From IMG/VR virus record IMGVR_UViG_3300047388_000109, positions 1 to 61,194 of that record: a stretch of DNA of 61,194 nt. The stretch is one strand, 5' to 3'. Shown here piece after piece: positions 54,786-57,700 of this stretch. The position numbers and the translations under genes are program-made. Numbering within the stretch: position 1 is the first letter of the stretch; every line of letters begins with the position of its first letter. A model generated the notes under the pieces. The model was not told the DNA's origin, searched no databases, and was given only the letters and a program-made list of their open reading frames with translations. Source of the DNA: a virus.

Positions 54786-57700
54786 TGCCTTTTGTTGATC
54801 CCGACAGCCTGCCTCAGGCAGGTGGGAAGTTTGTCGACCCCGATGACATCAGAAGCGCCTCTGGCGAGATTGGTGCAGCTGCCAAGCGCGGCCTATACCA
54901 AGGCGTTACCCAGATTGGTGGCGCGCTTCAGACGCCAGCCGAACGGCTGGGCATGGAGCCCGGTATCGTCTCGCGCGCAGGAAAGGCGGTCGAGGAGTAC
55001 GGCAAGGCCGGCGCGGAGCGCAACGCTCCGCAGGAGACCCTGCACGGACCGGTCACGAACTTCGCCTCTCAGGCAGCCGAAGGGCTGACCTCGTTCGCTC
55101 CAACTCTGGCCGCTCAGGCCGGGGTCGGTGCGGCCGTGGGGTCGGTCGCCGGCCCAGTAGGGACCGTTGTGGGCGGGGCGCTGGGAGCTGGCGGCTTCAC
55201 CGCCGGGCAGGTCTGGCACGAAGAGTACCAGAAGGCGCTCGCCGCCGATAAGTCGCCGGACGCGGCGCGCGACCACGCCGACAAGTCTGCCGAGCTGCAA
55301 GGCGGCCTGATGGCCGGGGCCGGCGGCGTCGCCGGTGGCGTTGCCAAGGGAGCCGGGATCGTCGGCAAGGCGCTTGGATACGGTGCCAAAGACGCGGCCG
55401 AGGCCGGGACCAAGGCCATCGGCAAGAAGTTCGGACCGGAGTTCGCCAAGGGAGCGGCCGAGACGACCGCCGTCAACACAGGCGCGACCGTCGGCGGCGC
55501 GGCCGGACAGGCGGCCATCGACTCCGGCGACAATCTGAACACCGAGAGCCCGGGAGATGCGGCGCTCCACGCCGTCATGCCGGCCCTCGGGGCGTCCGTC
55601 GGATTCCTGCCGCTGGCGGCTCTGGGAGCCCACACAAACGTCTCTCACGCCAAGATGGTAGCTTCGGTGCTCGCCAACCCGAACGCCGCCCCAAAGGCCC
55701 GCGCAGGGGCCGTCAAGCAGGTGTTCGACGCCATGCAGAAGGCCAACCCGGAGCAGGCCAACACATGGGCCCTGAATGCCGGGGAAGCCCTGCACGCCCG
55801 CGCGCCTATCGGGGTCGACTCCAGCTGGACCGAAGGTCTCCACCCAAGCGTCTTCCCTGAGCTGGCCGAACCAGCCAAGGAACCTCTCGCCCTGCCGGCC
55901 CCCGGTCAGGTCGCGATTCCGGCCGACCAGCGCGACTTCGGTCCGTTCGAGCAGTCCAACGAGGCCGATCAGGCTGCCATCGAGCGCGACGCCGCGCGCT
56001 CCAAGTACGAGGCAGAGCAGGCCACCCTTCGCGGCGACCCGCTGACGGCCGCTGCCTTCGCTGGCCGCGCCAGCGGTGCCGTCGACGCCAAGGCCGCAGA
56101 GCGCGCCGCCGAGATTCCGGCCGCCGAGGTCGAGGAGCAGAAGCCGACAGGCGACGCCGGGACCGACCAGTCCAACATGAACATCCGCTCCGCGCTGGGC
56201 AACCAGCCGCAGCTCTCGCTCGCCGACGCGCAAGCGAAGATCGCCGCCATCAACGGCAGCGGTGAAAGCCCGAACAACTACTCTGTTGTTCCGCACCCGA
56301 AGGGCGGCTACGGCATCGTACCCGACCACTTCATCACCCCACAAGTCAAAGAACTGTACGCGGGCCTACAGAGCCGTGGTACACCAGAGCGCGCGCCGAA
56401 CCTGACTCCGTTCGATCTCGAACGCGCGCAGGCTCACGCCGAGGACCTGACGTCGCAGTCCGGCGTCGAGCACGAGGTCGTGCCGCACCCTTACGCCCGG
56501 GACAAGTTCCTTGTTCAGGAAAAGGATGCGTTCACGTCACGTGAACAACCGAGAGAGGTCCTACAAGAGCAAGGCGCAGGAGGCGTACTTCAACGCGAAC
56601 CGGGCGAAGCTGGAGTCAGAGGGGGTGAACGTGGACGAGTGGAACCGGTCGTCCAAGGGGAAGAAGCTGCCCGCCAAGGTGAAGCAGCCCGTGTCGAAGA
56701 AGGTCCTGCAACGGGGGTACAGCAAGACGTAGCACGCCACGGCGTTAAGCTGCCTGAGGTCCCGGCCAAGACCAACATGGCAAGCGACGGGTACATCGGC
56801 ATCACCAAGCCGGAAGATGCGCGCGCGGTGTCCAGCCTGATCGACGCGTCGGTTGCGGCCGGCCACTCGCCAGAGCTGTTCCGTGGCGCTGGCATCATCA
56901 AGAACCAGAAGAACGACCCGTACTCAGCGCCGATGGCGGCGTTCGCGCACAACAAACTCATCTCGATCCACGAGAGCGTGCTCGGAGACGATGCGGCGCA
57001 GCGACCGCACCAGTTGGCGCACGAGGGTGGTCACCTGATTGACGCCAACCCGGCGACCGGAGGCATGCACTCCAACGAGCACCCGGCGTTCCGCATCAAG
57101 ACCAACGCTGACGGCTCTCGTGAGGCAGAGGGTGGTATTATGAAGGCGGCTGTTGCCGCGTTCCAGAACACGAACTCTCTCACAGGCAACTCCCTCTCCT
57201 ACCCGCTGCGCGACTTCAACCGCAAGGACTTCAAGAGACAGGGGTACGACTCCGCTCACCAGATGTCGCAGGTTCTGGAGAACGAGGTGTTCGCCCAGCT
57301 CAGCCGCATGTACGGGGAGAACCCGACGGCGATGATGTACGAGCACCCAGAAGCATACGCACTATTTAAGGAGATGCACGATGGAACGAAGAAATCCTCA
57401 GGAATCGCAGGACTTGAGCGCTCGCTACGGGGAGCGCTTCAACGCCGCGATCAGACCGGACGTGTACGACAAGGTGAGCCCGCAGGAGATGGACGCGCGG
57501 CAGAAGCAGGCGCTGGAGACCGGGGTGCCGATAACGGAGTGGCACGGGTATCCAACGAGTCTCGCAAACCTCTGGCCGTCGATGAAGGCGAACATGGCGG
57601 CACCGCTGACCGAGGCGGCGCAGGAAAGCCAGCAACCCGCGAAGACTTCAAGCCCGGCCGCGTAGGCGATCTTCTCAACAAGAAGGACTGGGCTGTCCTC

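Follow-up and report, generated by a model that had tools for sequence, protein, structure and literature searches.

The DNA analysed here (hereafter the window) is the viral IMG/VR record IMGVR_UViG_3300047388_000109, with a length of 61,194 bases. Structural-type genes are followed by a giant gene of the polyvalent type on the plus strand (54785–61192; 2,136 codons), which has no cysteine and is open at the record end; this end falls inside the gene, and no stop closes the ORF in the window. The giant protein is very long and carries several unrelated domains. These include a zincin-like domain with an HExxH motif (56762–57430), recognized by a profile match, which has its H, E and H invariant in seven aligned copies and gave matches to Pfam only below the cut-off. 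They also include DUF3293 (57698–57910; Pfam E 4e-10), the only secure Pfam match of the giant, and a DUF7178-like region with the pattern FGPKVG..WFFEQQLY (58244–59262), for which Pfam DUF7178 is matched by the aligned relatives, the copy in the window being absent from the Pfam match list. Five annotated phage records were matched, by the C-terminal part of the giant only. The same records gave no match for the DNA of the giant gene, its first 865 residues, the two nested ORFs described below or the family-like peptide of the first of them, nor for those zincin domains and nested proteins of relatives, including their versions of both ORFs, that were tried.

Two small ORFs, whole genes in their layout, lie inside the giant gene on the same strand and in its +1 frame, with products that are conserved as proteins. 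ORF1 (56526–56732, 68 residues) is recognized by its family (MPYKSKAQEAYFNANR..DEWN..SKGKKLP) and is preceded by the Shine-Dalgarno-like sequence AGGAAAAGG (56517–56525). ORF2 (57381–57665, 94 residues), recognized by its profile family, codon usage and ribosome-like site, overlaps the end of the zincin-like domain and is preceded by TAAGGAG (57367–57373), situated within giant codons. The coordinates, the +1 frame and the ribosome-like sites agree with those of a preliminary description of the sequence, which also reported that the giant frame becomes Gly/Glu/Arg-rich over exactly these stretches. This composition was borne out across both overlaps, and the third-position GC changes frame with it, since in the giant frame it is 0.77–0.82 in the neighbouring stretches versus 0.39 over ORF1 and 0.49 over ORF2, and in the +1 frame it reaches 0.91 and 0.81, respectively, a switch exactly matching both ORFs. 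AlphaFold models of the two products are middling (mean pLDDT of 68.9 for ORF1 and 67.7 for ORF2) and gave no Foldseek match at E 0.001 or better, so that no fold beyond "helical" is assigned to them.

Relatives of ORF1 were found in 52 viral loci by a scan of IMG/VR, the best having 80–81% identity over 31–41 residues. The members, usually of about 43–62 residues, follow the pattern MPYKSKAQEAYFNANR..LE..GVNVDEWN.ASKGKKLP, and the family has no secure match and no name in either Pfam or PHROGs. In the relatives the gene starts with ATG-CCN-TAY, which corresponds in the window to AGG-TCC-TAC (56556–56564), the family alignment placing AGG (56556–56558) at the start codon. Because of this, the window ORF1 must start upstream, at ATG 56526, GTG 56541 or TTG 56511. 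Just 5' of the ancestral start lies GAACAACC (56543–56550), read as E-Q-P in the giant frame, and the same sequence precedes the start in two distant giants (L062 and L070), where the corresponding position is occupied by a second version of the family. In the family alignment, the window ORF1 has up to 76% identity to free-standing relatives versus 33 and 27% to the L062 and L070 versions, and these identities suggest repeated capture or exchange of ORF1 at one site. The family is free-standing in all 52 other loci, as judged by whether the gene is covered by a longer ORF, and for this reason ORF1 is not a de novo overprint; here the linker frame, rather than the nested gene, looks like the newcomer. 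The term "overprinted genes" used in the preliminary description is thus kept in the sense that two apparently real genes overlap the linkers of the giant, and is wrong for ORF1 if it means that a new gene arose within an older one. In eight loci (L012, L014–L018, L020 and L021), a free-standing relative starts at most 13 bases from the stop of an ORF of 984–1,993 codons; this adjacency of the relative to the end of a long or giant ORF is a possible pre-capture state.

For ORF2, no relative was found by single-sequence search of phage records or IMG/VR. By profile, it was found in seven more giants (L062, L070, L090, L133, L134, L135 and L146), six of which were identified independently of ORF2; the seventh, L146, was identified by means of ORF2, and its giant has the same zincin-like domain (E 9e-29). 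Against the small ORFs of the loci, the final eight-copy profile gave E 1.1e-23 or better for the copies and E 1.9 for the next match, and in a search of 46 whole records it matched eight, with no further good copy and no free-standing ORF2. The eight giants are on separate contigs, with a GC content from 36% (L090) to 63%, and the offset is +1 in all of them; three giants (the window, L062 and L070) carry both ORFs. The protein-like character of the +1 sequence is therefore beyond chance, as the relatives in 52 loci and the eight nested copies attest, and the relatives have none of the +1-frame stops that would have counted against it, the frame being open and conserved in three divergent giants over ORF1 and in eight over ORF2. 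No secure Pfam or PHROGs match was obtained for ORF2, the best being that of the L146 copy to phrog_10510 (E 0.008, over 17 residues). A weak ORF2-like stretch in the giant frame of L135 (E 1e-4) lies elsewhere in that giant and was taken as chance.

A strong zincin-like domain is present in nine giants among the 135 loci searched, and ORF2 lies directly after it in eight of the nine; in the ninth (L141), the +1 ORF at that place is unrecognised by the ORF2 profile. DUF7178 precedes the zincin-like domain in L135 and follows it in L062, L070 and L146, and L133, which has no DUF7178 by Pfam, still has ORF2 3' of the domain. ORF2 thus follows the zincin-like domain wherever the domain sits, which argues that its product may work with the domain; such a partner role, taken by itself, is judged from the gene arrangement as possible and rather doubtful. 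The L141 giant has two further +1 nested ORFs with a strong codon signal (3977–4255 and 4307–4561). A weak profile match to the zincin-like domain (E about 1e-3) was also obtained in L089, L092 and L093, which are hosts of a third nested family.

The comparisons of sequence place at about 0.87 the probability that the DNA codes in two frames over ORF1 and ORF2. Another explanation would be that the giant ORF is not one gene, and that separate genes flank ORF1 and ORF2 with a joining frame that happens to be open because the DNA is GC-rich. GC-rich contigs commonly contain long spurious ORFs and, in the window alone, the probability of an open giant frame is not small (0.03 over ORF1 and 0.14 over ORF2). 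However, the same frame is open in all eight ORF2 giants. With the ORF2 proteins fixed and the codons drawn from each giant's own usage, the probabilities of this were 0.14, 0.001, 0.10, 0.0002, 0.005, 0.001, 0.04 and 0.001, where 0.0002 corresponds to L090, with its 36% GC; their product is about 6e-19 with the loci treated as independent, an overstatement since L134 and L146 are related. The part of the giant upstream ends in no stop, and, like the rest of the giant, the giant frame has no cysteine in the 11 overlaps with ORF1 or ORF2, against an expected 18.1 (the chances multiply to 7e-10). With this evidence, a chance joining of separate genes is quite improbable. Hydrophobic residues in the giant frame are also below expectation at the 2% level in seven of the 11 overlaps. 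The linker had been described beforehand as the by-product frame, which it largely is; it is not a mere by-product, because it is kept open, cysteine-free and mostly hydrophobic-poor. The converse possibility, that the +1 ORFs are chance by-products of the codon bias of the giant frame, draws on the fact that +1 frames are often open in GC-rich genes and on the window probabilities of an open nested frame given the giant protein (0.53 for ORF2 and 0.62 for ORF1). Over the set, the product of this reverse test is 2.5e-8. The existence of homologous proteins for both ORFs and the loss of the signal upon synonymous shuffling of 74 giants (see below) leave this possibility hardly credible, and for ORF1 it is already refuted by the free-standing family. 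Among the pairs of ORF2 giants, ORF2 identity is higher than giant-frame identity in 27 of 28 when aligned in the nested frame, and nested identity is above the expectation from the giant frame only in 23 of 28 when aligned in the giant frame, whereas giant-frame identity exceeds the nested-only null in 25 of 28, with a modest excess (mean z of 1.4; 4.7 for L134/L146). In the codon-position analysis suggested in the preliminary description, substitutions by nested codon position (0.59, 0.52 and 0.56) have no third-position pile-up, contrary to expectation, and selection is therefore not cleanly legible from codon positions at such divergence.

Programmed +1 frameshifting would instead produce shortened giants that carry ORF1 or ORF2 as a tail and end at the stop of the respective ORF, and the +1 frame of the window is indeed open 5' of both starts, from 56451 and 57336. 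Nevertheless, a +1 stop is located 1–4 codons before the start in L062 (both ORFs), L090, L134 and L146, so that slippage would need to occur exactly at the start. A Shine-Dalgarno-like site is present at all 11 ORF1 and ORF2 starts, compared with 203 of 785 background +1-frame ATGs, which points to own translation starts for the two ORFs, and ORF1 is an ordinary free-standing gene elsewhere; frameshifting is accordingly quite improbable. Compensating indels or assembly errors could also have displaced part of the giant to the +1 frame and then restored the original frame, in which case each such part would resemble coding DNA in the wrong frame. Against this, each nested ORF has its own start, its own stop and independent homologues, the same layout occurs in eight contigs, and no relative encodes the ORF2 protein in the giant's own frame, so that errors of this kind are very improbable.

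The avoidance of cysteine extends over the whole giant family. In the nine giants there is one cysteine in 20,612 residues, versus 56 in 8,032 residues in 19 other long ORFs of the window. Considering all loci, 35 of 72 giant ORFs have none and 56 have at most two, and the frequency per 1,000 residues is 1.65 in giants versus 8.1 in ORFs of 200–1,200 codons. A similar lack of cysteine is found in the N4 virion polymerase. Low cysteine may be a mark of ejected proteins, and the absence of cysteine from 35 of the 72 giants would be consistent with passage of these proteins across the periplasm. The two genes immediately preceding the giant (51601–53484, 627 residues, and 53484–54785, 433 residues) also have no cysteine, as if they formed an ejection module. 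Cysteine content did not differ between giants with and without a nested match (Mann-Whitney P 0.72), and some other nested families have hosts fused to a portal protein that are not cysteine-poor. Relatives of the window giant carry domains of the polyvalent class, namely ART-PolyVal (L135), LPD38 (L134 and L146) and InPase (L070), as well as DUF7178, the first three being linked to polyvalent proteins through either their Pfam names or the available text of PMC5512222. From this domain content of the relatives, together with the lack of cysteine, the giant may be a virion polyprotein.

Here it is proposed that ribosomes starting from 54785 would produce one very long, cysteine-free polyvalent protein, of a class thought to be injected along with the DNA after packaging into the head, and that over ORF1 and ORF2 these ribosomes would make hydrophilic, flexible linkers. 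Other ribosomes would start internally, at the Shine-Dalgarno sites within giant codons, to produce two small helical proteins. ORF1 would derive by capture from a small gene, which most of the phages having it carry free-standing, and ORF2 would be part of a module with the zincin-like domain. The ORF2 product would act with this domain, for instance by inhibiting or chaperoning it up to the packing or processing of the giant.

Nested +1 genes as such are already known in phages from Rz/Rz1 and embedded spanins (PMC6139136, available text). As with the window ORFs, Rz1 of lambda is, according to the same source, a small gene that lies entirely within another phage gene, is read in the +1 frame and has its own start. 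However, Rz1 is an outer-membrane lipoprotein that acts with Rz in lysis, while ORF1 and ORF2 have no cysteine and hence no lipobox, the feature that identifies an o-spanin; moreover, the host in the window is a giant gene with many domains, whose linkers hold several nested genes. The available text of PMC6139136 describes 182 embedded spanin pairs, many of them missed by annotation, and proposes the loss of an upstream stop codon as one route to embedding. Polyvalent proteins were described by Iyer and others in 2017 (PMC5512222, in the text available) as giant multidomain phage proteins for which packaging and injection are argued. They include ones with zincin-like metallopeptidase, InPase, ART-PolyVal, LPD38 or portal fusions, and such domains are present in the relatives of the window giant. 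The main text of that article, as available, has neither "overlap" nor "linker", uses "nested" for a hairpin only and describes no nested genes. As in classical viral overprinting (PMC8227390, available text), two proteins would come from one stretch of DNA, with the difference that ORF1 comes from an older family of free-standing genes and that it is probably the linker frame that arose later. The literature searched, which included the available text of PMC13299392 and had most subscription journals outside its range, gave no account of nested genes recurring as a layer of polyvalent genes. In general, gene callers tend to discard ORFs inside longer ORFs, and because of this a nested layer is easily missed in phage annotation.

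A tentative extension, given slightly less than an even chance, is that giants grow by swallowing small neighbours, the out-of-frame read-through becoming a linker and the small gene surviving within it, so that nested +1 genes would be a regular and largely unannotated layer with linkers marking the sites of capture. If this were general, the giant genes of phages would hide a set of small proteins, some of them tied to the protease-like domain of an injected protein. It would also give the linkers of multidomain proteins a simple origin, which can be checked in any set of related phages, and cysteine avoidance running through an overlap would serve as an inexpensive test for the reading of both frames.

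A scan for nested ORFs that fit the codon usage of the host better than the host frame does was carried out on 74 ORFs of at least 1,200 codons from 66 loci, which were collected by likeness to the genes of the window and are therefore not a random phage sample. It gave 33 nested ORFs in the +1 frame, compared with a mean of 0.15 in 20 rounds of synonymous shuffling, and one in the +2 frame (in a minus-strand ORF), compared with a mean of 0.05; with a log-likelihood gain above 8, there were 19 real and no shuffled cases in the +1 frame. This excess, and the presence of further conserved families, indicate that nested +1 genes recur in the giant genes of the scan. Their density was 1.24 per 10,000 codons in giants versus 0.55 in ORFs of 300–1,200 codons, a set in which spurious antisense ORFs and several hosts of this type are also present. 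A lower number of stops was considered as the source of the +1 preference, and the reverse was found, with about 3.6 expected stops in +1 versus about 2.6 in +2; these two values are slightly affected by the assignment of a single codon to amino acids that a giant lacks (cysteine). Part of the preference may come from the fact that an ATG start in the +2 frame would oblige the giant frame to read TGN (stop, Cys or Trp).

At least five recurrent nested families were seen. In addition to those of ORF1 and ORF2, they include one in L120 (2834–3040) and L116 (8443–8631), homologous to each other and with the motif ..ETFRAMRTYFERVAESKG.., the host in L116 being a portal-fused ORF; one in L098, L101, L102 and L103; and one in L088, L089, L092, L093 and L095 (the L092 family), all in the +1 frame. 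Ribosome-like sites are present before 17 of 22 nested genes, the five genes lacking them being those of the L092 family. The nested ORFs of L069 and L123 have a short motif in common and no more. The top codon score of the scan corresponds to an acidic +1 nested ORF of 131 residues in L099 (11091–11486).
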